Assembly: GCF_019599505.1 (NCBI RefSeq)
Contig: NZ_RKLT01000044.1
Location: 1 to 16,108, forward strand
Origin: Haloarcula nitratireducens
GTDB taxonomy: Archaea; Halobacteriota; Halobacteria; Halobacteriales; Haloarculaceae
DNA length: 16,108 nt
Direction: 5' to 3'
The position numbers and the translations under genes are program-made. The first letter of the stretch is position 1. Each line of letters starts with the position of its first letter. The notes below the pieces were generated by a model that saw only the letters and a program-made list of their open reading frames with translations, was not told where the DNA came from and made no database searches. Of this stretch, positions 1 through 14,206 are shown one piece after another.

Positions 1-2
1 CG

Positions 3-515: not shown

Positions 516-656
516 ATGTTTCAGCGGCTGTTGGCAAGACTACGACAGTCACTCGTATCAGGGCAACTCTACAGTACGACAGTCGATCCATGCGTTGAGT
601 GTGGGAATGCAACAGTCCCGGGTGCCGGCCGGTGTACCGACTGTTTCAACAACTAA
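516..656 (+). CDS. Small CxxC zinc-finger protein (46 aa)
   Basis: A short frame from ATG 516 to TAA 654-656 encodes 46 residues. The first 20 or so form a basic amphipathic helix (MFQRLLARLRQSL). The rest holds two CxxC pairs, CVECG at residues 26-30 and CTDC at residues 40-43, separated by a short Gly/Pro-rich turn. Four correctly spaced cysteines in so short a frame are strong evidence for a zinc-binding micro-protein; haloarchaea are known to encode many such proteins under 70 residues, a few with regulatory roles. A weak TATA-like element (GACTATCC, near 484-491) lies about 27-30 bases before the ATG, consistent with leaderless expression. Function unknown. The gene stands alone between the TumE-like gene and a transposase remnant. 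Confidence 0.55.
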   Translation: MFQRLLARLRQSLVSGQLYSTTVDPCVECGNATVPGAGRCTDCFNN

Positions 657-750
657 TCGTCCGTACTACCATAGCCTCGTCACAGGCAGTCGACAGGCAA
701 CTCGCAGATGTCACTCAAAGTGGTTGCTGGTATCAACGGCACTGTCTAGT

Positions 751-1002
751 TTAGGACCACCTCAGCTGGAGTTCGATTGTTGAGGGATTGATGGGTCGCT
801 GCTGGTTATAGTAATGGAACTGTTCAAGCCACCGGCGAACGCTGACCTGACTGCCCACCCACGAGCGATGGAAGCGGGCGATGCGCATTTTGAGAGTGTG
901 AAACCACTTTTCGATGAGGTTTCGGTCGACGTAGTCAAGCCGACCGCTCAGATCTAATCGAGCAAGAGCAGTCAGATAGCCGTAGCCATCGACGAGTGGG
1001 AG
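751..1002 (-). pseudogene. IS6-family transposase, C-terminal remnant
   Basis: Read on the minus strand, the segment from about 1002 down to 793 encodes a clear piece of an IS6-type DDE transposase. It has LVDGYGYLTALARLDLSG, then DYVDRNLIEKWFHTLKMRI with the conserved R-N-x-x-E-K/R-W-F catalytic-region motif, then RFHRSWVGS and YYNQQRP. The N-terminal HTH and the first catalytic Asp are absent, and the tail after QQRP (793 to the stop at 751) does not resemble a normal IS6 C-terminus. This is therefore a broken copy unable to transpose. Its left part (toward 1002) abuts a plus-strand coding remnant, suggesting that insertion and later deletion damaged the locus. I could not identify terminal inverted repeats or a target duplication. 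Confidence 0.75.
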
Positions 1003-1209
1003 TCCATCTCGCCGAGCCTTCTGATAGTCGGACTGCTGTGTCTCTCGGCCTATGGGACGTGGATGAGTATTGGTGACGGCTTGACGCCGGTTGATCCCAC
1101 TCCCTTCGGCTGGTACACACTCCTTTGGGCTGGTATCGCCGTCCTCATCTCTGGAGTGGGGTGGGCAGAGATGAGACGTAGTCAGTACTCTACAACGAAC
1201 ACAACGTGA
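1003..1209 (+). pseudogene. C-terminal remnant of a small membrane protein
   Basis: A plus-strand frame ending at TGA 1207-1209 encodes about 68 residues without a plausible start codon at its left end. It has two hydrophobic stretches (SLLIVGLLCLSAYGTW and FGWYTLLWAGIAVLISGVGW) joined by a Pro/Asp-rich loop (DGLTPVDPTPFG). It ends in a charged tail (AEMRRSQYSTTNTT), the usual pattern of a two-helix membrane segment. It begins almost exactly where homology to the IS6 transposase remnant on the other strand ends (about 1000), so the 5' part was probably lost when the element came in. Family not recognised. It could also be a chance open frame, but the tidy helix-loop-helix composition argues against that. 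Confidence 0.42.
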
Positions 1210-1248
1210 GCAGTTGCCTGAACCCCACGACGGATCGGAAGCTAACGC

Positions 1249-1254
1249 ATATAT
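1249..1254 (+). promoter_or_regulatory. TATA-like box for the TFS-like gene
   Basis: ATATAT centred about 29-30 bases before ATG 1281 fits a haloarchaeal promoter driving a leaderless transcript. No ribosome-binding sequence lies before the ATG, which agrees with leaderless initiation. Confidence 0.5.
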
Positions 1255-1280
1255 CCGACAACCGTGTATCCGTACTTTAT

Positions 1281-1598
1281 ATGCAATTCTGTGACGAGTG
1301 TGGTTCGCTGACGCATACGGAGGGCGACACGTGGGTGTGTCGCTCCTGTGAGCACGAGGAGCCGCGGGATTCGCAAGCTGAAGCGGCGATGGCGACGCAG
1401 AATGGACAGCGAGACGATGGGGCACCGACCGTGGCCGACGCGACTCAGGGCTCCACCGAGACGGTACAAGAGCCCTGTCCGGCGGACGACTGCGACAGCG
1501 ACCGGGCCTACTACGAGATGCTGCCGAAGCCGGGTGGCTCCTACGAGGTTCGGCTGTTCACCTGCGTCGAGTGCGGCCACAAGTGGCGCGAGTCCTGA
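1281..1598 (+). CDS. TFS/RPB9-like zinc ribbon transcription factor paralog
   Basis: This 105-residue protein has the two-ribbon design of archaeal TFS/RPB9-type factors, which bind RNA polymerase. The N-terminal ribbon uses C4, C7, C20 and C23. A Gln/Asp/Thr-rich linker spans about 28-64. The C-terminal ribbon uses C66, C71, C95 and C98 and ends in the typical CxxCGHKWRES. True TFS stimulates transcript cleavage through an acidic Asp-Glu pair in the hairpin between the C-terminal knuckles. Here that place reads LPKPGGSYEV, with no DE pair, and the first knuckle of the second ribbon is C-x4-C rather than C-x2-C. This is therefore probably a divergent paralog without normal cleavage activity. 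The ATG at 1281 is chosen because the ribbon begins at once (MQFCDECG) and a TATA box sits about 30 bases before it. Confidence 0.85.
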   Translation: MQFCDECGSLTHTEGDTWVCRSCEHEEPRDSQAEAAMATQNGQRDDGAPTVADATQGSTETVQEPCPADDCDSDRAYYEMLPKPGGSYEVRLFTCVECGHKWRES

Positions 1599-1817
1599 CT
1601 GGATTCTTCCCAGCAAGTGTGAAACCAAGGACGGCGGCTTGCTGATCTCACTCTCTGTATCGGGCACGTCGATACTGTCAGAACGCGAGTAATCAGATCG
1701 GTTGAGAGAGCAGCCTAATCAACGGAGACCTGGATTGCGCCATCGTGTTGGGTTACTCTATGAAAGCCCAGTAATCGATGCACGGCTTATTTGAGCGCTC
1801 CAGCGAGAGGGACACCA

Positions 1818-2978
1818 ATGACTGACGCGTTCGCGGATAGGACCCTCGCCGAGCACCGGCGCGTTTTCGAGAAGATATGGTGGCAAAACCCCGAGCGTCA
1901 GAACGAGACGTCCTCGTCTTGGTGGTTCTTTCTCCTGTTCCCGGAGGGCGAGGCCGGATACGGTCCCAAACAACTGATGTTCTCGATAGCTGCCTGTGTG
2001 GGTGACCAGTCCCGTGTCAACGACCTCCCGCCCCAGGGAATGGACGCCGACCGCCCCGTCGTCGACGGCGTGGATAGATTCAACGCGACAACGGTCGGCT
2101 GGACCGGCGACGACGAAGGGGTCCACGACCATGTCGTCAGGCAACCAGCCGAAGCGGTACTCTCTCGAGAGGACCAGCGTCTCGAAGCCTGGACAGACCG
2201 CGAGGACGGTACCAGACGCGGAAGCGAGATAGCGGCGCTCTCGAACCGCCCCCTCGGTCTGCGAGCCCACGTCATCGGTGACGACGCCGAGGCGGAGTTC
2301 GAGGCGTGGGGCGACCTCGACTCGAAGATGACCTCACCACACCACTCACTGGATATCGATACACCGCTGGGTGGCGCCGAGGTCGTGGCTTGGCGCCGGA
2401 TGGAGTTCGAGGGGGAGTTCGACCTGCCCGACGGCCCCGAGACGCTCTCCGGATCGTGTTACTTCCAGCGCGTGTGTTTCGACATGCCGCTGTTACCCTG
2501 GAAGTGGATCTGGGCAATCTTCCCGGACGGGACCTCGTTTTCCGTGTTGGTTCCCTTTATCGGGCCGCAGCTGTTCCGCCGAGGCTACAAATTCTTCTCC
2601 TCGGACAGACTCGAACGCCTGACGATACCCCTTCGACAGTTCGGGTTCTGGGACTGGGGCTCAAAAGACGGGCATGTCGAGTTTGATACGGTTACTGTCG
2701 AGCCGCTCCTGGGCACTGGCGAGCACCCTGACTTCGACGTTCGCGTCGAGAACGAGGAGGGCGATTACGTGCGGTTCGTGGCCCGGACTTATGGCCATGC
2801 GCGAAACTGGCTCGACCGTCCGAGACTCGGTGGTCGGCTTACGTCTCACTGGAGTTACAACGAGTTCATGTTCCGGATAGCCGGACTCGCCGGACACGTC
2901 GGCGGCACATCGATCGACGCCGACTCGATGGGTCCCGGATTCGGAACGTTGGAATACAGTACCGGGTTGGGTCTCTGA
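1818..2978 (+). CDS. Conserved-looking protein of unknown function, 386 aa
   Basis: The frame from ATG 1818 to TGA 2976-2978 encodes 386 residues with haloarchaeal codon use. No signal peptide or long membrane helix is evident. The N-terminal part has an aromatic strand (SSSWWFFLLFPEG, about 32-44) and the middle a second aromatic patch (GSCYFQRVCFDMPLLPWKWIW, two parts around 212-232) followed by FPDGTSFSVLVPFIG. Alternating hydrophobic and polar residues suggest a mainly beta structure in two halves. This layout recalls the CrtC/AttH two-lipocalin-like fold (carotenoid hydratase relatives), but I see no catalytic motif that would prove it. A TATA-like TTATTT at 1787-1792 lies 26-31 bases before the ATG, supporting this start over the TTG at 1791. 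Confidence 0.75.
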   Translation: MTDAFADRTLAEHRRVFEKIWWQNPERQNETSSSWWFFLLFPEGEAGYGPKQLMFSIAACVGDQSRVNDLPPQGMDADRPVVDGVDRFNATTVGWTGDDEGVHDHVVRQPAEAVLSREDQRLEAWTDREDGTRRGSEIAALSNRPLGLRAHVIGDDAEAEFEAWGDLDSKMTSPHHSLDIDTPLGGAEVVAWRRMEFEGEFDLPDGPETLSGSCYFQRVCFDMPLLPWKWIWAIFPDGTSFSVLVPFIGPQLFRRGYKFFSSDRLERLTIPLRQFGFWDWGSKDGHVEFDTVTVEPLLGTGEHPDFDVRVENEEGDYVRFVARTYGHARNWLDRPRLGGRLTSHWSYNEFMFRIAGLAGHVGGTSIDADSMGPGFGTLEYSTGLGL

Positions 2979-3412
2979 GCCACACCATTTGATTGAATAG
3001 TCGACGATGTGGCCGCGGTTGCCTGACAGTCTGTTCGACAAGGAGTAAGAGTATAGTCTCAAGGTAGCCACAAGCGCATTACCGACCCGAGACGGCGACG
3101 TAGGCTGTCACCAGTAGGAACGGCTCGGTCAGTGGATCTCTCGACCGTCTCGACAATTGCATGGCTATTACGATAGCGTCGGTATCATCGATCAACACGT
3201 GGCAGTAGCAGTCGATACAGAACTAACCAACAAAGCAAGGGAAGCCGACCGAACGTTGGGTAGCTAATTCGTTCCGTTTCTGCTACTCCCCGTTTGTTGC
3301 TCGGGAGACCATCTGAAATAGCTGTTAGTTAGAGTTACGGATTGACTGCCGAACGATAACAATCCCAGTTCGGAGGTGATACAAGGGGGTCCATTCCAGC
3401 GAAACAGATATA
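2979..3412. other. Gene-poor spacer before the ars region
   Basis: About 430 bases hold no convincing gene on either strand. Frames are short, codon use is not that of neighbouring genes, and base composition is closer to AT-rich spacer. The last bases lead into the arsR promoter and operator. A plus-strand frame ending near 3269 (HVAVAVDTELTNKAREADR) looks faintly protein-like, but it has no start codon or recognisable family and may be a decayed remnant. Confidence 0.5.
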
Positions 3413-3442
3413 TTAGCATAGGCTAATATTAGCAATCGCTAA
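3407..3442 (+). promoter_or_regulatory. arsR promoter with double dyad operator
   Basis: A TATA-like AGATATATTA (3407-3415 region) lies about 30-35 bases before the arsR ATG. Between it and the ATG are two perfect dyads of the same form, TTAGC-N4-GCTAA, at 3413-3426 and 3429-3442, separated by only two bases. Their centres are 16 bases apart. The second dyad ends one base before the ATG. A dimeric ArsR repressor bound here would cover the TATA box and the transcription start, so this is the probable autoregulatory operator. Confidence 0.7.
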
Positions 3443-3443
3443 G

Positions 3444-3815
3444 ATGACCCGACAATCGTCCTCACCGACACAGAGTGAGAAAAGGCCGTCCGACAGAGAG
3501 TGCTGTACTGCCGCGCATTCATTAGCTGAGTCGGAGCTCACTACAGATGTCCGGGTTCTCTCCGCTCTCGGCAACGACACTCGGTACGAGGCACTCAGAT
3601 TGATTGCTGACACAGAGGGTGACGTATGTGTTTGCGAGCTCGAACCGGCACTCGGTGTCAGCCAGGGCGCTATCAGTCAGGCGCTTTCACGGCTCTACGC
3701 TGCCGGACTCGTGTCTCGCCGCAAAGACGGCAAATGGCGATACTATGCAGCAACTCCACGAGCGACGGCCCTCCTCACCACACTTGATGAATCACGGGGT
3801 GAGCTCAATGAGTGA
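3444..3815 (+). CDS. arsR: ArsR-family metalloid-responsive repressor
   Basis: This 123-residue winged-helix protein matches the ArsR/SmtB family. The LSALGNDTRYEALRLI helix (about 39-54) is followed by the metalloid-sensing DVCVCEL motif with C62 and C64. The recognition helix follows (GVSQGAISQALSRLYAAGLV, about 71-90), then a beta wing (SRRKDGKWRYY). An extra Cys pair at C20-C21 in the N-terminal tail could add a third ligand for As(III). In the family, the apo-dimer represses its own operon and releases DNA when it binds arsenite or antimonite. The gene starts right after a double dyad operator, and its last bases overlap the start of arsM (ATGAGTGA), so the two are co-transcribed and probably translationally coupled. 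Confidence 0.9.
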   Translation: MTRQSSSPTQSEKRPSDRECCTAAHSLAESELTTDVRVLSALGNDTRYEALRLIADTEGDVCVCELEPALGVSQGAISQALSRLYAAGLVSRRKDGKWRYYAATPRATALLTTLDESRGELNE

Positions 3816-4617
3816 ACAGCCCACCTCGGACTCAACGACCGATGGGCTGGCTCCCGACGAACAACGCCGAGCAGTCCGCCGACGGTATGCACAGATTGCG
3901 AGCGAGTCGTCAAGTTGCTGTAGCGACTCGGGCGCTACACCTACCGAGGAGCTGACTCGCCAACTCGGGTACTCCGAGGACGAGGAAACCGCTGTCGTGG
4001 ACGGGGCAAACCTGGGGCTTGGCTGTGGCAATCCAAACGCACTCGCCGCTCTGCAGTCCGGTGAGACTGTCCTTGACTTGGGCTCCGGTGCGGGCTTCGA
4101 TTGTTTCCTCGCTGCCCGAGAAGTCGGGGATACCGGTCATGTAATCGGCGTCGATATGACGCCAGCGATGATCGAGAAGGCCCGCGATAACGTCACGAAG
4201 AACGATGTTCGGAACGTCGAGTTCCGGCTCGGTGAAATCGAACAGCTTCCGGTCGCCGACGAGACAGTCGACGTCATCATTTCGAACTGTGTGATCAACC
4301 TCTCCCCGGACAAACAGCAGGTGTTCCACGAGGCCTATCGTGTCCTCCGGCCTGGCGGACGACTCGCGATCTCGGACGTGGTTTTGACTGCCGAACTGCC
4401 AGCGGATGTTCATGCCGACCCGGAGTCAGTCGCCTCTTGCGTTGCGGGTGCTTCGCCGATAGTCGACGTCGAACGAATGCTTTCGAACGCGGGATTCGAG
4501 GCTATTCAGATCGAGTCGGACGAAGCAAGCGAGGAGTTCATCAGCGAATGGGACGCCGAACGGGACGTGAGCGAGTACGTAGTGTCGGCGACGATCGAAG
4601 CTACCAAGCCGGTCTGA
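3808..4617 (+). CDS. arsM: Arsenite S-adenosylmethionine methyltransferase
   Basis: ArsM moves methyl groups from S-adenosylmethionine to As(III), giving methylated and finally volatile arsenicals in the cytoplasm. The 269-residue product has SAM motif I (LDLGSGAG, 89-96), the acidic SAM contact in VIGVDMTPAM, and motif RPGGRLAISD (181-190). The arsenic-binding cysteines of the family are present: C73 in GLGCGNP, C161 in SNCVINL and C211 in SCVAGA. A further CC pair at C37-C38 (SSSCCSD) is the conserved N-terminal pair. Length is close to microbial ArsM, somewhat shorter at the C-terminus. The ATG overlaps the arsR stop, and no separate promoter is seen, so it is expressed with arsR. The assignment is firm because all the key cysteines are in place. 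Confidence 0.92.
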   Translation: MSEQPTSDSTTDGLAPDEQRRAVRRRYAQIASESSSCCSDSGATPTEELTRQLGYSEDEETAVVDGANLGLGCGNPNALAALQSGETVLDLGSGAGFDCFLAAREVGDTGHVIGVDMTPAMIEKARDNVTKNDVRNVEFRLGEIEQLPVADETVDVIISNCVINLSPDKQQVFHEAYRVLRPGGRLAISDVVLTAELPADVHADPESVASCVAGASPIVDVERMLSNAGFEAIQIESDEASEEFISEWDAERDVSEYVVSATIEATKPV

Positions 4618-4641
4618 GACGGTTGTTCGACTCCAGGTACT

Positions 4642-5121
4642 CTATTTCGAAGTTGCTCTATTCGGCGAAGCATCCGTCTCGTCGAAGAACTCGTCGAAAA
4701 GAGCCGTTACTCGCTGTTCGATGTCGTCTCGAATCACACGGACTTGGTCGAGGTCTTGACCGTCAGGGTCGTCTAGTGCCCAGTCACGAACGTCGACGTC
4801 AGCTGCGTCGAGGTCAAGCGTCGAACAGCCCATGGTCGCGACAACGTCGCAGGATTCGAGTTTCACCGTCGAGACTTCCCGTGGGGTCCGATCCGAGAGA
4901 TCGATATCGAGTTCCCCCATTACCGTCACGACCTCTTCATGGACGCTGTCAGCTGGGTGGGTCCCTCCTGTGATGATCTCTACGCTGTCTTCGAGTCCTC
5001 GGCGCTCACGCTCACGTTCAGCAAATGCCGTCGACATCTGACTGCGGCCTGCATTCTGTACACATACGAAACCGAACGTTACTATCGAATCAGCAGCCAT
5101 AGACGACAGATTCGCCGTCAC
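4642..5121 (-). CDS. arsC: ArsC-type low-molecular-weight phosphatase/arsenate reductase
   Basis: The product (159 residues from the GTG at 5121, 152 from the ATG at 5100) has the low-molecular-weight tyrosine phosphatase fold used by arsenate reductases. The P-loop is C20-VQNAG-R26 followed by S27 (CX5RS), and the general-acid region is WALDDPDG (about 114-121). Cysteines C91 and C99 (ESCDVVATMGCSTLDL) lie where thioredoxin- or thiol-linked ArsC proteins carry their resolving cysteines, though spaced by seven residues. It probably reduces arsenate to arsenite using a cellular thiol. A TATA box (CTATATAG, 5145-5152) is centred 27 bases before the GTG, which favours leaderless initiation there; the ATG would need a 21-base leader. 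It lies downstream of an arsR-like gene and convergent with arsM. Confidence 0.85.
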   Translation of the reverse strand: MTANLSSMAADSIVTFGFVCVQNAGRSQMSTAFAERERERRGLEDSVEIITGGTHPADSVHEEVVTVMGELDIDLSDRTPREVSTVKLESCDVVATMGCSTLDLDAADVDVRDWALDDPDGQDLDQVRVIRDDIEQRVTALFDEFFDETDASPNRATSK

Positions 5122-5144
5122 TGGCTTGATACCTCGTATGTGGT

Positions 5145-5176
5145 CTATATAGTGGACAATACCTCTCAGATGAGAG
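5145..5176 (-). promoter_or_regulatory. arsC promoter with adjacent perfect dyad
   Basis: On the minus strand, CTATATAG (5145-5152) is a good TATA box for arsC. Directly upstream of it is a perfect dyad, CTCTCA-GA-TGAGAG (5163-5176), in the position of a BRE/upstream operator. It differs from the dyads before the plus-strand arsR, so the two modules may answer to different regulators. No U-run follows, so a terminator is unlikely. Confidence 0.5.
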
Positions 5177-5195
5177 ACAGCCCTATTCTAATGCT

Positions 5196-5504
5196 TTACA
5201 GACGCGACCCATCGATTGCGGCCATCAGCGCAGTCGTCCGTTGCGTGGTCTCGTACTTTCGCCAGTTCTCCTCGTACCGCTTGATGAGACCGGAGTCGGT
5301 GAGTTGTGAGAGTGCATGACTAATCGCGCTATCACTTACCGAGAGGGGCGGCGAGAATTCACAGACACATAGTTCAGAGTCAACTGCGTGGAGAAGGCGA
5401 ACGATTTTGTAGCGAGATTTGACAACGGAATCCCCGACGACGAACGGATTCGCCGCGAATCGCAGATGCTCGTGCGCGTCGATATAGAGACCGAGAGTCG
5501 TCAC
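5196..5504 (-). CDS. ArsR-family regulator with atypical N-terminus
   Basis: From residue 27 on, this 102-residue product is a normal haloarchaeal ArsR/SmtB protein. It has VVKSRYKIVRLLHA, then the sensing motif ELCVCEF (C46, C48), the recognition helix VSDSAISHALSQLTDSGLI (about 57-74) and the wing KRYEENWRKYETT. The part before it is odd. The usual SALGNETRY helix is replaced by FVVGDSVVKSRY, and residues 1-20 resemble nothing in the family. The frame also stays open upstream for 28 codons (to 5588) but has no ATG or GTG there, so GTG 5504 is the only standard start. It may be a gene whose 5' end was replaced by recombination. As the gene before arsC on the same strand, with a 74-base gap, it probably regulates arsenate response if functional. 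Confidence 0.7.
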   Translation of the reverse strand: MTTLGLYIDAHEHLRFAANPFVVGDSVVKSRYKIVRLLHAVDSELCVCEFSPPLSVSDSAISHALSQLTDSGLIKRYEENWRKYETTQRTTALMAAIDGSRL

Positions 5505-5649
5505 AGTATCTGCTAGTACCGCCGGGCTGATACAGAGAGCGTCTCCATTACGGCCAGTGATTTGTCGGAATGAGATACAGACTAGAACCTATCGTATCGG
5601 AAAATCGATCACGATACCGCCGGCGGAAACTACTTATATTGTGACACGT

Positions 5650-5886
5650 CTATTCGAGGAGGTCAGAGTCCTCCGCAAGCTGATCCCAGACGTCGCGGGT
5701 TTCTGCAAGCGATTCAACGCCCCGCAATCGCTCCCTCAATTGGGCCGCTTCCTCATGATCTACAGACCCCTCTATGACCGCCTGTTGAATCGTATCTGCG
5801 AGCAGCCCGATCTGATAGTCGAGGCTGCTGACCATCTCATGTCTGATACGTTCGTTTGCTAGTGCATCGGGGGTTGTGTCGTTCAT
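5650..5886 (-). CDS. Small helical acidic protein, function unknown (78 aa)
   Basis: ATG 5886 gives 78 residues with a very regular amphipathic helical pattern: ANERIRHEMVSSLDYQIGLL, ADTIQQAVIEGS, then EEAAQLRERLRGVESLAE. There is no cysteine, signal peptide or membrane segment. Regular heptad-like spacing suggests a helical bundle or coiled coil, as in small haloarchaeal regulatory or partner proteins. A GTG at 5940 would add 18 residues that look unlike coding sequence (MKPVSSLGRFSLGTPLDI), so the ATG is preferred. A possible TATA element (CTTATGC, about 5948-5954 on the minus strand) would give a leader of about 40 bases. I do not recognise the family. Confidence 0.6.
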   Translation of the reverse strand: MNDTTPDALANERIRHEMVSSLDYQIGLLADTIQQAVIEGSVDHEEAAQLRERLRGVESLAETRDVWDQLAEDSDLLE

Positions 5887-6121
5887 TATGTCGAGGGGGG
5901 TCCCAAGCGAGAACCGGCCAAGTGAACTGACCGGTTTCACTCCCTCTGCATAAGAGAGGAATTGACCCCGGAAAACGGTGTTGTGAACGCTAGCAGACCA
6001 ATACGGGGTTCCACAAGATATGGACTCAAGACTGTGTCTCTGTGATCAGCGAATGTGGAATGTCCTGATCAGTCGCACGTATTCTGCGGATTCCCGAATT
6101 CCTATCATCCCTGCGTGAGGT

Positions 6122-6634
6122 CTATGATTCTTCTTCAGCGCCGGCCTCCGCGTGCGCGTCCATCTCTTCTGCTCCCTGCAAGAAGAAGTGATTGAAGGGT
6201 TGGACGTGTCGCCGTCGCATCATCTCCGAACTCTCGATTTCGACGCCGATGTCGTGGATCGCGTCGGTGATTCTGGTAATATCGCTCGTGCTCGTCCCGA
6301 CGACGTCGACGTGGATGTTGCGCCGCCCAGTGAGCATCTCACGAACGTCGATGACGCCCTGGATCGCCCTGATGTCCGCCGAGTACTGTTTGAGTTTAGT
6401 GGGCGATGCGGAGATGACAAACGTCACTTGCAAAGGGAGGTTGGCCGCCTCGTAATCGATCTCTGGATGATACCCTTTGATGATGCCATCTTCTTCGAGC
6501 TGATCGATTCGGTTCCGAACGGTACTGGCCGAGACGCCAGCCGTGTCGCCGATTTCCTGTGCCGTCTTGTTGCGGGCATCTTGCTGGAGCAAGTAGAGGA
6601 TGCTCCGGTCCACATCGTCTAGATCTCGACCCAT
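6122..6634 (-). CDS. Lrp/AsnC-family transcriptional regulator
   Basis: The 170-residue product has the two-domain Lrp/AsnC design. An N-terminal helix-turn-helix lies at about residues 5-55 (DDVDRSILYLLQQDARNKT, then GVSASTVRNRIDQLEEDGII). A RAM ligand-sensing domain follows at about 66-136 (LQVTFVISA, then VREMLTGRRNIHVDVVG). A 30-residue acidic and His-rich tail (HVQPFNHFFLQG, then AEEMDAHAEAGAEEES) extends beyond the usual length. Members form dimers or octamers and control amino acid, energy or metal genes. The target here is unknown. A TATA-like element (AATATG, near 6660-6665 on the minus strand) lies about 28-30 bases before the ATG, so the transcript is probably leaderless. It stands as its own unit. 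Confidence 0.88.
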   Translation of the reverse strand: MGRDLDDVDRSILYLLQQDARNKTAQEIGDTAGVSASTVRNRIDQLEEDGIIKGYHPEIDYEAANLPLQVTFVISASPTKLKQYSADIRAIQGVIDVREMLTGRRNIHVDVVGTSTSDITRITDAIHDIGVEIESSEMMRRRHVQPFNHFFLQGAEEMDAHAEAGAEEES

Positions 6635-6982
6635 GGGATGGAGTACGGCGTGGAAGTACTAACATATTCCCTACCGCATGAGTAACTCGTGTCTCATCAC
6701 CCTCGCTGCGGGATACAGGATATTCGGCAGGTGATTAGGTTCAGGTTCGCACACTGTGGATTCTGTGATTATTATCCTAACTGCTGGGATTGTTACGTCT
6801 ACAGATAGTATAATCGGTGGGAGTACAGGAGCCTCTGACAAACCAGATGCAGTAGAGTCATCTGTGCGGTTTCCCGTACTCCTTCATGCCACGACGAGCA
6901 CTGAAACAACCCTCCACGAAGAAACCGCTATGCAACAGAGTATTCGCTTCGATTCCATCTATGACGCACGTTCCTACAGAAA
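6635..6982. other. Gene-poor spacer between the Lrp and HalOD1 genes
   Basis: The left end carries the promoter of the Lrp-type gene. The rest is AT-richer than neighbouring genes. One plus-strand frame (6756-6986, 76 residues, starting MDSVIIILTAG) runs through it and just overlaps the 3' end of the HalOD1 gene, but codon use and composition are not convincing and no motif is seen. I would not call it a gene. Confidence 0.5.
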
Positions 6983-7300
6983 CTAATCGTCGTCCCCATC
7001 TGTGAGAGCTCCATCGATCTGAATTTCGATGTTGCCATTCCTGTTCACCCGGACAGTGGTATCAGCATATTTGAACGAGACCGTAACTGACGCTGACTCT
7101 TCGCTAGTGAGCAGTGCATCAAACGCATCAGCGTCAACGCTCCGGTGGCGTAGTGGAAGATCGGCTGTCGTCCGGTCCGTGGCAGCAGCAACTGCTTCAA
7201 CGAGAGCTACGCTAGGCGGGCCTGGCTGGCTCCAGTCATGGCGAACCGTAGTCGAATTCGTTTCTTGGTCGGATTGATAGCCAGATATCGAATCCGTCAC
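6983..7300 (-). CDS. HalOD1 domain protein
   Basis: Residues from GPPSVALVEAVAAAT onward match the halobacterial output domain HalOD1: an Ala-rich helix (PSVALVEAVAAATDR), then DLPLRHRSVDADAFDALL, and a short beta sheet (ASVTVSFKYADTTVRVNRNGNIEIQI). HalOD1 proteins are small haloarchaeal proteins or output modules presumed to act in signalling or gene control; no enzyme activity is known. The GTG at 7300 gives 105 residues; a GTG at 7318 would add six and lies inside a terminator-like hairpin, so 7300 is preferred. The start GTG lies inside a 10-base repeat of part of the upstream RNA helix. It is divergent from the TrmB-type gene, sharing a 280-base intergenic region. Confidence 0.8.
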   Translation of the reverse strand: MTDSISGYQSDQETNSTTVRHDWSQPGPPSVALVEAVAAATDRTTADLPLRHRSVDADAFDALLTSEESASVTVSFKYADTTVRVNRNGNIEIQIDGALTDGDDD

Positions 7301-7308
7301 TAGTCTCG

Positions 7309-7332
7309 TAAAAACCACCGGGAATGGTGGTT
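7309..7332 (-). terminator. Intrinsic-terminator-like hairpin with U-run
   Basis: On the minus strand, AACCACC (7332-7326), loop ATTCCC, and GGTGGTT (7319-7313) form a perfect 7-pair stem followed by a run of five T (7314-7310, two shared with the stem). On the plus strand no U-run follows, so it is oriented for minus-strand transcription. It lies just before the HalOD1 GTG and could either end a small RNA or act as an attenuator in the HalOD1 leader. Confidence 0.6.
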
Positions 7333-7380
7333 CCAGCGTGTAGCGACAGCGAGGTTGGGACCCGTTCCGTCACTACACGC
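7309..7380 (-). ncRNA. Candidate structured small RNA or leader
   Basis: Minus-strand RNA beginning at about 7380 would start with GCGTGTAGTGAC (7380-7369), which pairs over 12 positions with GTCGCTACACGC (7347-7336), using one G-U pair. On the plus strand that pair would be C-A, so the helix is strand-specific. A 21-base loop (7368-7348) follows the first arm. A second hairpin with a U-run ends near 7309. The TATA-like CTATATG (7410-7404) lies about 26 bases upstream of the first helix base, as expected for an archaeal start. The loop holds 12 bases exactly complementary to the trmB leader. It may be an independent RNA of about 72 bases or the 5' leader of the HalOD1 mRNA. Expression is not proven. 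Confidence 0.5.
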
Positions 7381-7403
7381 CATGCTACGTTCCGTGCTAC
7401 CTG

Positions 7404-7410
7404 CATATAG
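7404..7410 (-). promoter_or_regulatory. TATA-like box for the HalOD1 gene or small RNA
   Basis: CTATATG on the minus strand is placed to start transcription near 7381, exactly at the first base of the 12-pair helix and about 80 bases before the HalOD1 GTG. Confidence 0.45.
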
Positions 7411-7567
7411 ATGTACTGTGATTAAGTGGGTGAACGAACGAGAAGCGTCGATTTCGCAGAATTTGAAAACTCCTGGATCTCGGAGAATTGTGTAACTATC
7501 TGAGCTACACTTTGCAACCCGGTGCGACGTACTAAACACCTAGGAGATGAATGGGACGATAGCAGTC

Positions 7568-7579
7568 GAGGTTGGGACC
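7568..7579 (+). promoter_or_regulatory. trmB leader site matching the antisense loop
   Basis: GAGGTTGGGACC lies one base before ATG 7581. Its GAGG could act as a ribosome-binding sequence at a reasonable distance. The same 12 bases occur at 7351-7362 in the loop of the candidate minus-strand RNA, so that RNA could pair perfectly with this site. It could equally be one of two copies of a DNA operator. Confidence 0.5.
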
Positions 7580-7580
7580 A

Positions 7581-8411
7581 ATGGACGCTGTTTCAAACCA
7601 AGGACGAGCGATCGAACTGCTCCAACAACTCGGACTCAAAGAATACGAGGCCAAGGCGTTTGTCGCACTCACACGCCGGCAGCGCGGGACGGCCAAGGAC
7701 ATCAGCGAGACCTCCGAGGTGCCCCGGACGCGCGTCTACGATGCGATTCGCGTACTGAAATCGAAGGGCCTGGTAGAGACCCAGCACTCAAACCCGCAGG
7801 TGTTTCGAGCGGTCTCTATCGACGAGGCTGTCAATACCCTTCAGTCAGAGTACGTCGAACGCACCGAGTCACTTCGGAGCGCTCTGAGCGGACTTGAACC
7901 GGCTGACGATGAAGAATCAACAGAGGCTACCCACGAGGTGTGGTCTATCTCGGGCGATCAGGGCATTGCGAGCCGGACACGACAGTCAATCGAGGAAGCG
8001 GCAGAGGAGGTAATCCTCGTGATCGGGCACGAGAGTGTGTTCACCGACCAGTTGGTCGAACAGTTGCGGTCGGCCCAAGAACGAGACGTGCACGTCATCG
8101 TCGGGACGGTCGACGAGGAACTCCAGGCCGCGATTCAGAGTGCCCTTCCGGATGTCGAAGTGTTCGTTTCGGGACTGGACCGGCTAAGCCGATCGCCACT
8201 CCCGGGTGACGATACCGAAATCAGTCGGTTGTTACTGGTCGACCGCGAGGCGATCCTGGTGAGTTCGTTCACTGATACGAGTGAAGAAGGCCGTGAACAC
8301 GAACAAGCTGTCTTTGGTCGCGGATTCGACAACGGGCTGGTCGCGATCACTCGACGGCTAATGGCTACGGGATTGCGCTCTAGGAACAACCCCGAGACTA
8401 GTGAAACCTGA
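7581..8411 (+). CDS. TrmB-family transcriptional regulator
   Basis: The 276-residue product starts with the TrmB-type winged helix: AIELLQQLGLKEYEAKAFVAL, then GTAKDISETSEVPRTRVYDAIRVL (in two parts, about 30-55) and GLVETQHSNPQVFRAVS. A short coiled segment (about 85-110) leads to a C-terminal effector-type domain with EVILVIGHESVF, DVHVIVGTV and RLLLVDREAILVSSF, the phospholipase-D-like core seen in many TrmB-like proteins. Family members control sugar and central carbon metabolism genes, but many haloarchaeal paralogs have unknown ligands. The ATG at 7581 is preferred to the TTG at 7572 because a GAGG sequence lies eight or so bases before it. A weak TATA-like element (TACTAAAC, about 7530-7537) would give a leader of about 20 bases. 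It is divergent from the HalOD1 gene. Confidence 0.87.
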   Translation: MDAVSNQGRAIELLQQLGLKEYEAKAFVALTRRQRGTAKDISETSEVPRTRVYDAIRVLKSKGLVETQHSNPQVFRAVSIDEAVNTLQSEYVERTESLRSALSGLEPADDEESTEATHEVWSISGDQGIASRTRQSIEEAAEEVILVIGHESVFTDQLVEQLRSAQERDVHVIVGTVDEELQAAIQSALPDVEVFVSGLDRLSRSPLPGDDTEISRLLLVDREAILVSSFTDTSEEGREHEQAVFGRGFDNGLVAITRRLMATGLRSRNNPETSET

Positions 8412-9171
8412 GTATTCGAGATAGTAATTTTGAAACGGTCGATTTTAGCTGGCACATACTGCAGAATCGCTTCGTTCGACAGTCGGGTCGGAGCCTGCAG
8501 CGCCAACCTGTGCGTATTGCAGGTATTGGTGCCACCAACGACGACGATTCCCGCTACGTTTGACACTCGACTCAACGATGAACACCGGGCGGCATACAGT
8601 CCTCGCGATCACGACCGTCGGCACAACGGCGTGCGTCGCCATCGCCCCACTCGCGAAACTCGTCGCACCCAGTCTCGAGAGACTACTCAGCGGGTGCCTC
8701 GCGTTGGCGTTCAGTTGCTCGACCCGTCACAGCGGTCGCGTGGATGGTACGCTGATCGCGTCAAACCCAGCGTCACTTTTCATAGTGTCTGTAACGGGAA
8801 GTGCACGTAGCCACATCCTCTATCGAGGATTGCCTTGTCGAATTAATGGCAAGCGAGTAAACCTGACGAGTAGCGCTCTCGCGATCAGTACCTACCCGAA
8901 AGCCGAGCGGCTTCAATCGTTGACCGAGTCTCTGTACTGGCTGTCCCTACTTCGCACCGATTTTTCCTCGATTGACGAGCACGTTTATTCGGGGTGGCCA
9001 GGGGTACACGAATACGAACACCAGGATCACGAATTCCTGGCCACGATGACGAGGAGGCACTCACCAACAGGTACAGAGCGATTCAACACACCCATTGTCG
9101 TGTGAGGCACTCGTAGGGGGTGCTGCAGCGAGCGACACCCGTGTCCAGTACGGATTGGAGTCTCGATGTTG
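8412..9171. other. Long gene-poor stretch with possible decayed ORF
   Basis: About 760 bases have no confident gene. A plus-strand frame from ATG 8578 begins with a hydrophobic segment (TVLAITTVGTTACVAIAPLA) and halophile-like codons for some 40-60 codons. Its codon use then becomes random through to 9105, as in a decayed or frameshifted membrane protein gene. A perfect 9-base inverted repeat, GTGGCCAGG (8994-9002) and CCTGGCCAC (9036-9044), encloses a direct repeat CACGAAT (9007-9013, 9028-9034). The right end would hold the 3' untranslated part of the SLC13 gene. Confidence 0.5.
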
Positions 9172-11148
9172 TCACAGACCCCAAAAGAACGCGATGCCAG
9201 CCGTCGTCACGACGGTCAGTATCAGTTGTAACGGGGCGCCGACCCGCGCGAAGTCGGTGAACTTGTACCCACCGGGGCCATAGACCATCAGATTCGTCTG
9301 GTAGCCGACGGGACTGAGTAGCGGTGTGCTGGCGGCGAACGTCACCGCGAGGGCGAACGCGAAGGCGTTGACTCCGAGTTGACCAGCGACTTCCACGGCG
9401 ATAGGGAGCATCAATACGATACTGGCGTTGTTGCTCATCATTTCCGTGATAATCGCGGTCCCCAGGTAGAATACCGCGAGCATTACGAGTGGCGGCAGCA
9501 TGGTGCCCTCGGTGGCGATGCCCGACGCGATCAGATCCGCGGTCCCGGACGCTTCGAACGCGATTCCCAGGGGAATAACGCCAGCGAGCAGGAAAATAAC
9601 ATCCCAATCGACGGCTTCGTAGGCATCCGCAGGGCGGAGGATACCCGAAAAGAGCATCGCGACGACGCCAGCGAGCGCGCTGACCATGATCGGGAGATAC
9701 TCGAGGGCGGCCAGTCCGACGACGGCGGCGACGATGCCCAGTGCGATTGGAATCCGTGTCCGGTCGAAATCCTCCCAGCGTCTGTCACTGGAGACGACGA
9801 TATTGTTGTCATCCCGGAGCCGGTCAAGGACGTCCTCGTTCGTCTGAACGAGTAACACGTCACCGCCCTGTAGGCGCACGTCTCGGAGGCGCTGACGAAT
9901 CACATCGTTCCCCCGGCGGACGGCAAGCACGGTCGCGTCGTAGGTTCGTTCGAATCCCGCGACGCCGTTTCGTCTGTTCAACCACGCCCCGGGGAGCAAC
10001 ACGATCTCCGTGAGCGAAACTTCGTCCTCGGCTTCCTCCACGTTTTCAGTTCTCTCGTCGTTGTTCGTGGCCGGATTGGGTGTTGCCGACGGTTGGTTCC
10101 ACGCGTGGTGCTCGGGGACGAATCCTTCGGGGAGCGGTTCGTCCCCGTCCGCTGCGGCGTCGAGGAGTTCCGGGAGAAAATCGAGGTGTTCGTCCCCGAT
10201 GACTTGTTCGAGCGTCTCCTGGCTTGCTCTGACCGAGAGGACGTCGCCGGCGCGGATTCGCTCGCTGGAGAGGGCGCGAACGATACTACGACCGTTGCGC
10301 ATAATCTGGAAGACGTCCAGATCAAGGTCGCCGCGTCGCACCTCCCGCACCTGTGAGCCGACGAGGTCAGAGTTCTCGTGGACGACGACGTCGGTGAGGT
10401 AGTCAGCCATGCCGAATTGGTCCGTGGGGGTTCCCTCGGCCGCGATTCGGGCTGGCGTGAGATACCGACCGACCGTAAGGAGGTACAGTATGCCGACGGT
10501 CAGCACGACGGCGCCGAGCTGCGTGAACTCGAACAGTGAGAACGGTTCTGCGGTCGGGCCACCGACCTGCGCCCAGATCTGGCTCGCGAGCAGGTTCGTC
10601 GACGTGCCGATGACGGTGAGCATCCCGCCCAGCATCGCGGCGAAGGAGAGGGGAATCAGCAGCTTCGACGGCGAGGTTCCGGTCTTTCGGGCGAGGGTCG
10701 TGACGGCTGGAATGAGTACTGCGACAATGGGCGTGTTGTTGACGAAACCCGCCGACGGGCCAGCCAGTCCGACCGTCGCGAGGAGTTGGCGGAATTCGCT
10801 GTCGCCCGCGAACCCCTCTAATTTCTGCGTGAGGATCTGGATGACGCCGGTCTGTCGCACCCCCTCGCTGAGGATGAACATCGCCAGCACGGTGAGCGTC
10901 GCAGGGTTCGAGAAGCCCGAGACGCCTTCCTCGGGTGAGACGCCCGTCCACGGACCGAGGAGGATCAATACGACCATCAGGGCGATCGCGGTGGTGTCGA
11001 TCGAAACCGGCTGGAAGATGAATAGGACGAGTGCGACGACGACGACCGCAAGAACCACGAGTACGTCGACAGAGACCGGTAGTTGCACGGGAAACTGCTG
11101 GAGTAGTGCTAGCGGTGCCAGTACGGGTTCGTAGGGTACGGTCGTCAC
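9172..11148 (-). CDS. SLC13/DASS-family permease with two RCK_C-like domains
   Basis: The 658-residue membrane protein has about five or six helices (25-235), a cytoplasmic insert (245-460) and a second helical half (465-658). Transport motifs of the DASS family are seen twice: NNTP (137-140) with GTSTNLLASQ (181-190) in the first half, and MSNNAS (571-576) with SPVGYQTNLMVYG (612-624) in the second. The insert holds two TrkA-C/RCK_C-like units (about 250-322 and 378-450), each ending in GDVL(S/L)V. An acidic, Asn-rich linker joins them. Such proteins are annotated as Na+-coupled sulfate or carboxylate transporters, and the RCK_C units may bind a nucleotide or ligand that gates transport. Substrate unknown. 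The start is GTG 11148. A TATA-like CTACTATG (about 11180-11190) lies upstream. Confidence 0.88.
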   Translation of the reverse strand: MTTVPYEPVLAPLALLQQFPVQLPVSVDVLVVLAVVVVALVLFIFQPVSIDTTAIALMVVLILLGPWTGVSPEEGVSGFSNPATLTVLAMFILSEGVRQTGVIQILTQKLEGFAGDSEFRQLLATVGLAGPSAGFVNNTPIVAVLIPAVTTLARKTGTSPSKLLIPLSFAAMLGGMLTVIGTSTNLLASQIWAQVGGPTAEPFSLFEFTQLGAVVLTVGILYLLTVGRYLTPARIAAEGTPTDQFGMADYLTDVVVHENSDLVGSQVREVRRGDLDLDVFQIMRNGRSIVRALSSERIRAGDVLSVRASQETLEQVIGDEHLDFLPELLDAAADGDEPLPEGFVPEHHAWNQPSATPNPATNNDERTENVEEAEDEVSLTEIVLLPGAWLNRRNGVAGFERTYDATVLAVRRGNDVIRQRLRDVRLQGGDVLLVQTNEDVLDRLRDDNNIVVSSDRRWEDFDRTRIPIALGIVAAVVGLAALEYLPIMVSALAGVVAMLFSGILRPADAYEAVDWDVIFLLAGVIPLGIAFEASGTADLIASGIATEGTMLPPLVMLAVFYLGTAIITEMMSNNASIVLMLPIAVEVAGQLGVNAFAFALAVTFAASTPLLSPVGYQTNLMVYGPGGYKFTDFARVGAPLQLILTVVTTAGIAFFWGL

Positions 11149-11453
11149 GAATCAACCGGGAGTAAATTCCCGCGGTGGCGACATAGTAGTACGGTTCGCG
11201 CCTCAGCACCCTCGGTGTTTGGCTAACACGGACAGAAATACTCGGTGTCCCTGTGAACGGCAGACTTCGATCGTTCTTGGTCCGTTACTCAGGGGTCCTA
11301 TACACCAATTTCTCCATTCACGGCCGTACTTGGACTCGGGATGTCTGAATTCTCGTCACCGTTCCGGTTTCGTGCCCGGAGATCATCGGGGTCTCACACC
11401 GTCTTTTTTATTATTATCGACCGTGGCTACTCACAGGGACTTCTCCTCTGGAA
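11149..11453. other. Divergent promoter region of permease and ATPase
   Basis: This spacer holds both promoters. Near the permease start is a small dyad, CGGGA-N6-TCCCG (11157-11172). Further in, CTCGGTGT occurs twice with a 30-base period (11211-11218 and 11241-11248), and GTGTT-N5-AACAC (11215-11229) overlaps the first copy. Toward the ATPase, an AT-rich TTTTTTATTATTATC (about 11404-11417) is the likely TATA region, giving a short leader. No gene is convincing; the plus-strand frame 11219-11497 runs into the ATPase in another frame. Confidence 0.5.
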
Positions 11454-14192
11454 ATGGACGAACACCCGATTCAAACGCCGTGGGCGAAATCGTCTGATGA
11501 AATCGTAGCGCATTACGATGTTTCTGTAAACGAAGGGCTGAGCGAGGACGAAGCCAAAACGCGGCGCGAGCGGGTCGGCCCGAATGCGTTGCGAAAGGGG
11601 GAACAGCGGGGTTGGTGGAGAGTTCTGGCGGACCAGTTCAGGAGCTTCATCGTCCTATTGCTGGCGGTGGCGGGAGTGGCAGCCTTCGTACTGAACGAGA
11701 ACGTCGAGGGTGTCGCCATCTTCGTCGTGCTCCTCATCAATGGGCTCATCGGGTTCGTCACCGAGATGCGGGCCATCAAGTCGATGGAGGGGCTCCAAGA
11801 GATGACGGAGATCGAGGCTCGCGTTCGTCGGGAGGGGGAGGTCGAGGAGGTGTCTGCCGAAGATCTAGTACCAAGAGACATCGTGCTCCTCAACGCCGGA
11901 AACGTTGTTCCGGCCGACCTTCGAGTGATCGAGCCCTCTAAGCTCCAAGCCGACGAATCGGCGCTCACCGGCGAGTCCGTTCCCGTCGGAAAGACGAGCG
12001 ACGTCCCCGAGGAAGACGTGCCCCTCGCCGAGCGAGAGAACATGCTTTACAAGGGGACGAGCGTGACGCGGGGGACTGCGGAAACGGTCGTCGTGTCCAC
12101 GGGGATGGACACGGAACTGGGCAGGATCTCGGCGTCGCTGCAGGGAGAAGCCGAGGAGAAGACGCCGCTCCAGCAGAAGTTGGACGAACTCGGGCGGAAG
12201 CTCGTTCCGTTCCTGCTCGTCGTGGCCGCGATCGTCTTCGTCTCGGGATGGCTCAGGGGCCAGGATCTGTACCTGATGGTCGAGACGGCCATCGCACTGG
12301 CCATCGCGACCGTCCCGGAAGGGCTTCCGGTCGTCGCCACGCTCGTACTCGCGCGCGGGATGTGGCGGATGGCGGATCGCAACGCCCTGATCAACAACCT
12401 CGCCTCCGTCGAGACGCTGGGCTCGACGAACATCATCTGTACCGACAAGACGGGCACGCTGACAGAGAACAAGATGACCGTCAGCGAGTACGAGCTGGCC
12501 AGCGGCTCGGTTGCCGTCACCGGAACAGGCCTCGATACAGAGGGGGTGTTTCAGCAGAGTGATGAAGAGCGGGACGAGCCACGGGACCCTGTCCTGCAGG
12601 AAGCGCTGGAGGTGGGCGTTCTCTGTAACAATGCGTCAGTGACCGAGGAAGGGGGCGAGACGGCCGTGACGGGTGATCCGACGGAAGCTGCCCTCCTGAT
12701 ATCGGGATTGAAGGGCGGCATCGATCGGAACGAACTCCTCAAGTCGATGCCCGAAGCTCGCGAGGTGTCCTTCGACCCGTCTGTTAAGATGATGGCGACC
12801 TACCACGAGCTGAACGGAAGCTATAAGCTCGCCGTGAAAGGTTCGCCGGAGGCGGTCGTCGAGTCGTCAACCCGGCTGGTAACGGGTGACGGCACCGAGT
12901 CTCTCTCGGACCACAATAAAGAAGAGTGGATTCAAAAGAGCGAGACCATGGCCGAAGACGGATTACGGGTCCTCGCGCTCGCCAGAAAGGACGTCGAAAG
13001 TACGGACGCCCCGCCGTACGAGGAGCTGTCGTTGCTCGGATTGGTCGCCATGATCGATCCGCCCCGAGAGGAGGTCAAGTCGACGATCGAGAACTGTCTG
13101 GATGCAGGGTTGCGGATCGTCATGGTGACCGGTGATCATCCGGGGACGGCCAAAAACATCGCCCGAAGCGTCGGGCTGATGGATTCGGATGACGATGAGG
13201 TCATCCAAGGAAGCGAACTTGACGACCCCGAGAACCTGTCCCGGGACGAGATGGAGCGGTTCGTGAACGCGTCGGTCTTCGCGCGGGTCGCTCCGGAGAA
13301 CAAGCTTGACCTGATCGGAATTCATCAGGCAGCCGGGTCGATCGTGGCCATGACCGGCGACGGGGTCAACGACGCGCCAGCGCTGAAGCGGGCCGACATC
13401 GGCGTTGCTATGGGTCAACGGGGAACGCAAGTGGCTCAGGAGGCGGCGGACATGATTCTCCGGGACGACAACTTCACGAGTATCTACCACGCCATCAGGG
13501 AAGGGCGGATCATATTCCGGAACATCCGGAAGTTCGTGCTGTATCTCATGTCTTGCAACCTCAGCGAACTGCTGGCCATTCTGATCGCAGCACTGCTTGG
13601 CTTTCCGCTGCCGTTGCTTCCCCTGCAGATCCTCTTTCTCAACGTCGTGACTGACATTTTCCCAGCGTTCGCATTGGGGGCGTGCGGAGGCAGTAAGGAA
13701 ATTATGAACACGCCACCGAGGGATCCCGACGAGCCGATCCTGACCCGCACGCACTGGACCGAACTAGGGCTGTACGGAACTATGATCGCAGTCGCGACTA
13801 TCGGCGCGTTCGTAATCGGGGGCAGCATGTACGCCGGCGGAATGGGGGCCGACGAGGTCGTCACCATGTCGTTCCTCACGCTGGCGTTCGCCCAGCTCTG
13901 GCACGTGTTCAACACGCGGGAACTCACGTCGGGCATCGTGCGCAACGAGGTCACCGAGAACGCGTACGTGTGGGGTGCACTCGGCCTGTCGGCCCTGCTG
14001 GTGGTCAGCACCCTCTACCTGCCGGGGGTTTCGCTGGCACTAAACACCGCCCCCATCGGTCTCGAAAGCTGGGTCGTCGTGCTCGGAATGAGCCTGCTCC
14101 CCCTGGCCACTGGACAGATCGTTCTGGAGTTTCGTCGCCGATTTGGCACGCCGAACCTGAGAACAAGGCTCGGAGATCTATCGTTCGACTGA
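11454..14192 (+). CDS. P-type cation-transporting ATPase (Ca2+-type, P2)
   Basis: The 912-residue protein pumps cations across the membrane using ATP. Domain order is standard: an N-terminal cation-ATPase domain (about 1-75), M1-M2, an actuator with T172-G-E-S175, M3-M4, the P domain with D331 in DKTGTLT, the N domain, the hinge T634-GDGVNDAP, then M5-M10. Ion-site residues fit the Ca2+/Mn2+ group: E289 in PEGLP (M4), N702 and E705 in NLSE (M5), N730, T733 and D734 in NVVTD (M6). These equal site II of the sarcoplasmic pump. The M8 acidic residue of site I appears to be replaced (FAQLWHVFN), which suggests one ion per cycle, as in PMCA/PMR1-type pumps. Na+ or Mn2+ cannot be excluded. ATG 11454 is chosen because the family's N-terminal domain starts right after it. 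Confidence 0.93.
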   Translation: MDEHPIQTPWAKSSDEIVAHYDVSVNEGLSEDEAKTRRERVGPNALRKGEQRGWWRVLADQFRSFIVLLLAVAGVAAFVLNENVEGVAIFVVLLINGLIGFVTEMRAIKSMEGLQEMTEIEARVRREGEVEEVSAEDLVPRDIVLLNAGNVVPADLRVIEPSKLQADESALTGESVPVGKTSDVPEEDVPLAERENMLYKGTSVTRGTAETVVVSTGMDTELGRISASLQGEAEEKTPLQQKLDELGRKLVPFLLVVAAIVFVSGWLRGQDLYLMVETAIALAIATVPEGLPVVATLVLARGMWRMADRNALINNLASVETLGSTNIICTDKTGTLTENKMTVSEYELASGSVAVTGTGLDTEGVFQQSDEERDEPRDPVLQEALEVGVLCNNASVTEEGGETAVTGDPTEAALLISGLKGGIDRNELLKSMPEAREVSFDPSVKMMATYHELNGSYKLAVKGSPEAVVESSTRLVTGDGTESLSDHNKEEWIQKSETMAEDGLRVLALARKDVESTDAPPYEELSLLGLVAMIDPPREEVKSTIENCLDAGLRIVMVTGDHPGTAKNIARSVGLMDSDDDEVIQGSELDDPENLSRDEMERFVNASVFARVAPENKLDLIGIHQAAGSIVAMTGDGVNDAPALKRADIGVAMGQRGTQVAQEAADMILRDDNFTSIYHAIREGRIIFRNIRKFVLYLMSCNLSELLAILIAALLGFPLPLLPLQILFLNVVTDIFPAFALGACGGSKEIMNTPPRDPDEPILTRTHWTELGLYGTMIAVATIGAFVIGGSMYAGGMGADEVVTMSFLTLAFAQLWHVFNTRELTSGIVRNEVTENAYVWGALGLSALLVVSTLYLPGVSLALNTAPIGLESWVVVLGMSLLPLATGQIVLEFRRRFGTPNLRTRLGDLSFD

Positions 14193-14206
14193 TTAGGAGC
14201 GATCAG

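Follow-up and report, generated by a model that had tools for sequence, protein, structure and literature searches.

The closest described counterpart of the element reported here is sRNA162 of Methanosarcina mazei, which, in the accessible text of its description (PMC3510493), has an unstructured linker, two domains and two targets and addresses a cis-encoded messenger RNA (mRNA) leader with another domain. sRNA154 of the same archaeon is likewise a conserved small RNA with two loops that blocks the translation of one target; the available parts of that paper (PMC5867862) describe several targets (nifH, nrpA, glnA1 and glnA2), mRNA stabilisation and conservation in Methanosarcina. We analysed a 16,108-nucleotide (nt) stretch of Haloarcula nitratireducens (contig NZ_RKLT01000044.1, positions 1 to 16,108 of the forward strand; hereafter the window), which carries a predicted small RNA gene divergent from trmB, a gene for a TrmB-family transcription regulator. 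In the predicted RNA the seed is placed in a hairpin loop, and its partner, the trmB gene, is usually next door, in many genera; this sets it apart from sRNA162 as the accessible text describes it (PMC3510493).

In the loci analysed, loop and target are separate sequences, 0.2 to about 2.2 kb apart. This differs from the loop-presented antisense RNAs of bacterial plasmids such as CopA, which are transcribed opposite their target and match it over their full length; common to both types is a stem-loop RNA with a loop complementary to the leader of a nearby-encoded gene. Two intergenic small RNAs of Haloferax volcanii, s479 and sRNA132, also act on mRNAs in haloarchaea; the accessible text on them gives links to zinc and phosphate transport and, as far as it goes, does not mention a conserved loop/start-site pair. 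According to the available text of a review, targets have been proven for few of the small RNAs of archaea, and in the literature searched we found no haloarchaeal small RNA with target pairing backed by compensated changes across genera.

The RNA described here has a conserved, covarying structure and a promoter/terminator layout, and its loop and target show compensated changes. We consider it likely that an antisense small RNA masks the ribosome-binding region of trmB and would thereby lower the synthesis of TrmB.

The predicted small RNA gene and the trmB start site

A 13-nt direct repeat, CGAGGTTGGGACC, occurs in the window at 7350-7362 and, 217 nt downstream, at 7567-7579. The first copy lies between the inverted-repeat arms 7336-7347 and 7369-7380 and is in the apical part of a minus-strand hairpin; the second stops one base short of the trmB ATG at 7581. 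A sequence-only reading of the window had pointed to a 12-base complementarity between a hairpin loop and the trmB start, ending one base before the ATG and including its GAGG. The complementarity is real, even one base longer than claimed, and both placements were borne out. The same reading had remarked that a lone 12-base repeat is unremarkable in 16 kb, which is fair: GGTTGGGACC at no more than one mismatch occurs four times in the window versus 1.18 expected, the only exact copies being loop and target. It is conservation that decides instead, and a chance repeat was ruled out by the conservation of both copies in relatives and by the co-variation of loop and target. The elements of the locus are the following.

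7350 to 7362, minus strand: antisense core in the loop, GGUCCCAACCUCG, identified as a direct repeat with 7567-7579 and by the loop/target pairing table
7567 to 7579, plus strand: target site CGAGGTTGGGACC in the trmB leader, including GAGG and ending 1 nt before the ATG, identified by the repeat and by the ATG spacing across loci
7310 to 7381, minus strand: predicted small RNA gene of about 72 nt (covariance-model match 7298-7385, the window being one of the model's own sequences), its 5' end near 7381 predicted from the TATA spacing and its 3' end in the T run 7314-7310 from that run
7336 to 7381, minus strand: 5' stem-loop, a long covarying stem with an apical loop holding the antisense core, from pair counts and folding
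7310 to 7332, minus strand: second hairpin resembling an intrinsic terminator, AACCACC..GGTGGTT and then T5, with 7/7 pairs of model helix 2 changed on both sides
7404 to 7409, minus strand: TATA-like box of the small RNA gene, TATATG on this strand, from the position of an AT-rich peak in 105 loci
7418 to 7433, no strand assigned: conserved element ahead of the TATA box, GTGATTANNNGRGTGA, a candidate regulator-binding site
7530 to 7537, plus strand: putative TATA-like element of the trmB promoter (TACTAAAC); the consensus for the clade of the window (21 members) shows it strongly conserved
7581 to 8411, plus strand: trmB, the predicted target gene, encoding a TrmB-family winged-helix regulator of 276 amino acids (Pfam TrmB, E = 1.7e-22)

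Read along the minus strand, the elements follow in the order upstream element (GTGATTANNNGRGTGA in plus-strand reading), TATA box, hairpin, second hairpin and T run. Measured back from the loop anchor across the 105 loci, the AT-rich peak is found at 47-50 nt and the start of the hairpin at 22-23 nt; the resulting TATA-to-hairpin spacing of about 26 nt matches the expectation for an archaeal promoter. With up to three mismatches, GTGATTANNNGRGTGA was present in 103 of the 105 loci as compared with 44 of 1200 random 80-nt windows. A version longer by one A has 28 occurrences, spread over 27 of 116 genomes, and its reversed control has none; 25 of the 28 coincide by coordinates with trmB or RNA loci while three do not. 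A weaker second copy, again at up to three mismatches, stands near the trmB promoter in 33 of the 105 loci, about 90 nt before the ATG in the clade of the window; in the window itself it is degenerate (7492-7507).

The stem of the hairpin covaries. Among 25 aligned sequences, 14 of the 22 pairs show double-sided changes and 89.8% of the cells are paired; among 78 sequences all 22 pairs do so, with 89.7% of the cells paired versus 68.5% after shuffling and 28.7-44.2% in slid controls, the larger alignment having been fitted to the structure, towards which it leans, and the smaller one not. A search of the window against Rfam at the curated gathering score gave no match. The claim of a small RNA at this place is supported as regards a minus-strand RNA, with the correction that it resembles a free-standing gene, having a promoter/terminator layout of its own. 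Its sequence features are those of a separate transcription unit (a TATA box, an upstream element and a terminator form of its own), and it is kept where it lies 0.9-2.2 kb away or in altered orientation. Assignment to the cis-encoded antisense class was rejected, because the predicted RNA does not overlap trmB.

The trmB product has a TrmB domain and a partial Regulator_TrmB domain, and its translation contains no cysteine. OxsR-type regulators, according to the available text (PMC9426492), comprise about 123 amino acids with one winged-helix domain carrying Cys24; the 276-residue, two-domain protein without cysteine is not of this single-domain type. From TACTAAAC, the 5' end of the trmB mRNA is predicted near 7558-7560, which would give a leader of about 22 nt holding the target. 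A transcript starting downstream of 7568, which according to the sequence-only reading would leave the site outside the mRNA, is accordingly unlikely as judged from the TATA-like element. Between the core of the target and the ATG there are 0-3 nt in all 105 loci measured, and exactly 1 nt in 84, while the distance of the target from the TATA-like element varies between clades by eye. A stem of at least 5 base pairs (bp) adjoins the target outside the clade of the window in 67/75 loci (6/6, 28/30 and 33/39 by group; shuffled, 19-27%), in a comparison of 96 grouped loci, the remainder of the 105 belonging to no group. The frequency of this leader stem next to the target argues that the site is transcribed.

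On this basis, an RNA of about 72 nt would be transcribed from the minus strand, from about 7381 to 7310; its 5' stem-loop would display GGUCCCAACC and the second hairpin would terminate transcription. In the divergent trmB mRNA the loop would pair with GGUUGGGACC, directly ahead of the AUG, over 13 bp in the window, and the masked ribosome-binding region would yield less TrmB. For the window the loop/target duplex was computed at -31.0 kcal/mol. Given the complementarity of loop and mRNA site, pairing between the two RNAs is the simplest reading; as RNAs, loop and target are complementary and not identical, so that an RNA-binding protein recognising a single sequence could not bind both. The RNA would be a diffusible antisense regulator, devoted almost entirely to one partner that is usually encoded next door. 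A regulator, perhaps TrmB itself, may in turn control the RNA via the element at 7418-7433 and so close a feedback loop.

Conservation and joint change of loop and target

Among the 391 genomes of the class, covariance models at E ≤ 0.001 detected the RNA in 85 (R1) and 113 (R2); many of the sequences on which R2 was built come from these same genomes. A TrmB relative at E ≤ 1e-55 is present in 214 of the 391. Scanning the named genomes with the TrmB protein yielded 25 loci, of which 24 are haloarchaeal orthologues; two plasmid loci were added to the latter. Of these 26 related loci, 24 carry TTGGGACC twice, once 0-3 nt from the trmB ATG and once farther upstream. The exceptions are L014, with a degenerate trmB site, no upstream copy and transposase-like upstream DNA (by eye), and a Halolamina plasmid (L027) without either copy. 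Genera with the RNA/target pair include Halorubrum, Haloarcula, Halosimplex, Natronomonas, Haladaptatus and Halorussus. A scan of viral contigs found no trmB relative, and an origin from viruses was dropped.

The pair is nearly exclusive to trmB. As read from the match table, GGTTGGGACC at a start site occurs in 84 of the 391 genomes versus 31 for the reversed control. We examined 38 loci with GGTTGGGACC 0-3 nt before an ATG (all 11 places of one list and 27 further ones from a longer list), of which 27 concern trmB and 11 other genes. A copy of TTGGGACC within 600 nt upstream accompanies 26 of the 27 trmB sites; the 11 others have neither trmB nor such a copy and look like chance, and a broad set of other targets was rejected.

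For the 110 model-detected loci, repeats of the same genome place under other identifiers and second matches on the opposite strand were left out. A trmB start lies downstream in 108, and in 107 of these loop and site can form at least 10 uninterrupted base pairs, G-U included; the exception, L124, has 8 bp and a broken trmB copy. Core position u3/x3 is Watson-Crick in 108/108 loci (C-G in 75, A-U in 33), a number that none of 2000 shuffles reached (mean 62.3), and the neighbouring position u4/x4 is paired in 100/108. The mean duplex measures 12.6 bp with a locus's own partner, 10.7 bp with partners from other loci and 11.2 bp in the best of 1000 shuffles; these figures presume the central five pairs and carry a small error, as they overcount L124.

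The loop exists in five core versions, each matching its own target. Written as target/loop, they are GGTTGGGACC/GGTCCCAACC; GGTTGGGACAC/GTGTCCCAACC; GGTTGGGATCC/GGATCCCAACC in L104, compensated at another core position; GGTGGGGACC/GGTCCCCACC in L187, L189, L191 and L232; and GGTTGGGCC/GGCCCAACC in L240 and L246. In L187, L189 and L191, target GGTGGGGACC stands with loop GGUCCCCACC. The upstream element, not complementarity, led to the RNAs of L187, L189, L191, L240 and L246, and model R2 to that of L232. Among 44 further loci, 42 can form at least 10 bp compared with 119 of 2200 shuffled loops; this set consists of 42 loci located by R2, which favours the letters of the loop, plus L240 and L246, and overlaps partly with the 49-locus sample described below. 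In eight hand-picked genomes with two versions each, own duplexes average 12.1 bp and crossed ones 9.4 bp, with one tie (G302). The co-variation that the sequence-only reading had suggested looking for in relatives is therefore largely found, at u3/x3 and u4/x4 and in the further compensated versions, with few independent events on the tree.

The RNA is also kept away from its usual place. It lies about 0.9-1 kb from trmB in L116-L118 and L121-L123 and about 1.5 kb away in L249, and on a Haladaptatus plasmid (L176) annotated genes stand between the two. In the rearranged locus L214 the RNA and trmB share one orientation at a distance of 2.2 kb, and the second TrmB gene and two further open reading frames (ORFs) stand between them; the DNA repeat is thus inverted while the RNA complementarity stays. 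As part of the same joint reading, the RNA is probably diffusible and not bound to its place.

Pairing was less frequent in a harder sample of 52 loci, mostly fetched because they lacked a model match or carried the upstream element; three were set aside (two without trmB, one with only a 36% paralogue). A matched pair was present in 23 of the remaining 49 trmB loci, namely 21 with at least 10 bp at the element, L240 with its full 9-bp version, and L201, whose RNA lies 2.2 kb off (L214). Seven related loci (L193, L195, L197, L251, L253, L254 and L255) keep or nearly keep the target beside a decayed-looking RNA stem and loop; L254 is the same place as the plasmid locus L181. A whole-genome RNA search in seven genomes that keep a target without a well-matched RNA found none in six and two weak matches in one. 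An intact distant RNA that might serve these targets was not found in five of the seven genomes, and in the other two a loop core is intact beside a second trmB locus (L262 in G197, L230 in G254). Loop/target pairing is common and not universal, and the target outlives the RNA in some lineages.

Some loci have a damaged trmB or none nearby. In G144 the trmB start reads ACG (L124, which also has in-frame stops) or ATA (L125) instead of ATG, and the adjoining RNA hairpins still score well. In L135 (G202) the two repeats have apparently recombined, the 3' arm of the RNA hairpin being fused directly to the start of a trmB that is broken into several frames. Family RNAs without an adjacent matching trmB target occur at L244/L263 (G083) and L128 (G242).

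Points against the antisense reading and other explanations

Several results weigh against an antisense RNA acting on trmB. In the window a GGU/ACC mini-stem closes part of the loop, and most of the mRNA site is base-paired in a predicted 100-nt fold, so that both RNAs would have to open. In the clade of the window a stem stands beside the target in only 7/21 loci (shuffled, 12%). In the harder sample, pairing over at least 10 bp, found in 107/108 and 42/44 loci elsewhere, is confined to 21/49; 16 of the 49 keep a start site of the family type, exact or slightly changed, without such an RNA (L186, L193, L195, L197, L229, L236, L237, L238, L241 and L251-L257), several of them showing an apparently decayed stem and loop beside an intact target, and 10 have neither target nor RNA. 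Independent compensations are few: on a tree built from 103 TrmB proteins (of the 108 rows, two with a short trmB and three lacking its start were omitted), u3/x3 shows one change, u4 six and x4 ten. By reading of the tree, compensated events at u4/x4 include L006 beside L007, L132, L133 and L056, and uncompensated ones L091/L140, L138, L143, L058, L164, L130, the window and L162. Uncompensated cases comprise the window at u4 (one of 8/108 there), L162 at u2, and L217, L221 and L241. The independent pairs are too few for significance in a tree-based paired test. Divergence of loop and leader from each other, which the sequence-only reading had named as speaking against its proposal, is seen at the duplex edges and in a minority of loci that keep a family-type target beside an RNA that looks decayed or was not found (16 of 49).

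Among other explanations, the one that survives best is that the repeat is a DNA operator, with TrmB or another regulator binding GGTTGGGACC both at the trmB start and inside the divergent unit. TrmB-family genes often autoregulate, and such self-control would suit an operator; direct repeats bound by one protein would co-vary too, and the loci that retain the trmB copy beside a decayed-looking RNA are what a trmB-only operator could produce. We nevertheless regard an operator as unlikely. It does not account for the position of one copy within the loop of a hairpin that covaries as RNA and has a promoter and a terminator, for the way the other copy stays 0-3 nt from the ATG in all loci measured while its distance from the TATA-like elements varies, or for the presence at these loci of another candidate operator, GTGATTANNNGRGTGA. 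The TrmB consensus is TACT-N7-GAGTA, from which the repeat motif differs. Tolerance of G-U pairs was rejected as proof of RNA pairing over an operator: one-sided core changes are few, and roughly half of them are compatible with G-U pairing, which favours neither side.

Slightly less probable than an operator, in our estimate, is that pairing activates or stabilises the trmB mRNA rather than repressing it. A duplex that abuts the AUG and covers the GAGG region should block initiation, although the leader stem that so often adjoins the site outside the clade of the window would fit an activating role. Stabilisation of some targets is described for Methanosarcina sRNA154 in the available text (PMC5867862).

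Least probable is that the two hairpins are mainly a 5' leader (attenuator) of trmB2, a second TrmB gene, in which pairing with the trmB leader controls read-through into trmB2 and not trmB translation: the second hairpin is of terminator form and trmB2 starts directly after it in 60 of 108 loci, but it was not found there in the other 48, and on two Haladaptatus plasmids the nearest gene annotated on the same strand (in an incomplete gene table) is more than 500 nt off.

The antisense RNA that masks the trmB start thus remains our preferred reading. More tentatively, it may belong to a feedback module widespread in haloarchaea, in which TrmB or the divergent paralogue controls its own dedicated antisense RNA via an operator almost confined to these loci; paralogous modules of one cell, having evolved separate loop/target codes, would then form a natural set of partly insulated RNA switches that also links two TrmB regulators.

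Gene neighbourhood and significance of the RNA family

Downstream of the small RNA the window contains the following gene.

6983 to 7318, minus strand: ORF with a HalOD1 domain (Pfam HalOD1, E = 4e-17)

The sequence-only reading had seen two divergent regulatory genes linked by the RNA. In 60 of 108 related loci the divergent gene is the TrmB paralogue trmB2, starting right after the RNA; in the window the HalOD1 ORF replaces it. The start codons of this ORF (7260-7318, minus strand), ISGYQSDQ, resemble the trmB2 start MSGDQSDQ of relatives, and at 7260-7288 a leftover of the second paralogue's start seems by eye to be present, as if that gene had been replaced.

Farther off, 3444-5121 holds an ArsR-type regulator and a low-molecular-weight phosphatase-family protein with an ORF between them, which presumably resembles an arsenite methyltransferase; this is likely an arsenic-resistance cluster. 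A large predicted anion transporter (9172-11148, minus strand) and a predicted P-type cation ATPase (11454-14192, plus strand), both named from sequence, stand divergently.

In the literature searched we found no description of an RNA at the trmB start, which is weak evidence as the coverage of subscription papers was thin. Among the matches listed for the core sequence, papers were unrelated by title, and the available text of papers on CsmR, on translation under oxidative stress and on OxsR does not describe such an RNA. The accessible part of a small-RNA study from halite reports 22 conserved intergenic RNAs of Halobacteria without function, which could include it. By the Rfam search of the window and the papers searched, the RNA family lies outside those described; it belongs with the antisense RNAs that mask ribosome-binding sites.

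Because the window has no Rfam match, the family may deserve an entry of its own. Such a dedicated and widespread partner is notable in archaea. The pair is testable, with natural compensatory variants across the named genera, and the eight genomes with two differing codes provide a natural test of pairing specificity. The data suggest antisense masking of a start site as a means by which haloarchaea control one of their transcription regulators.
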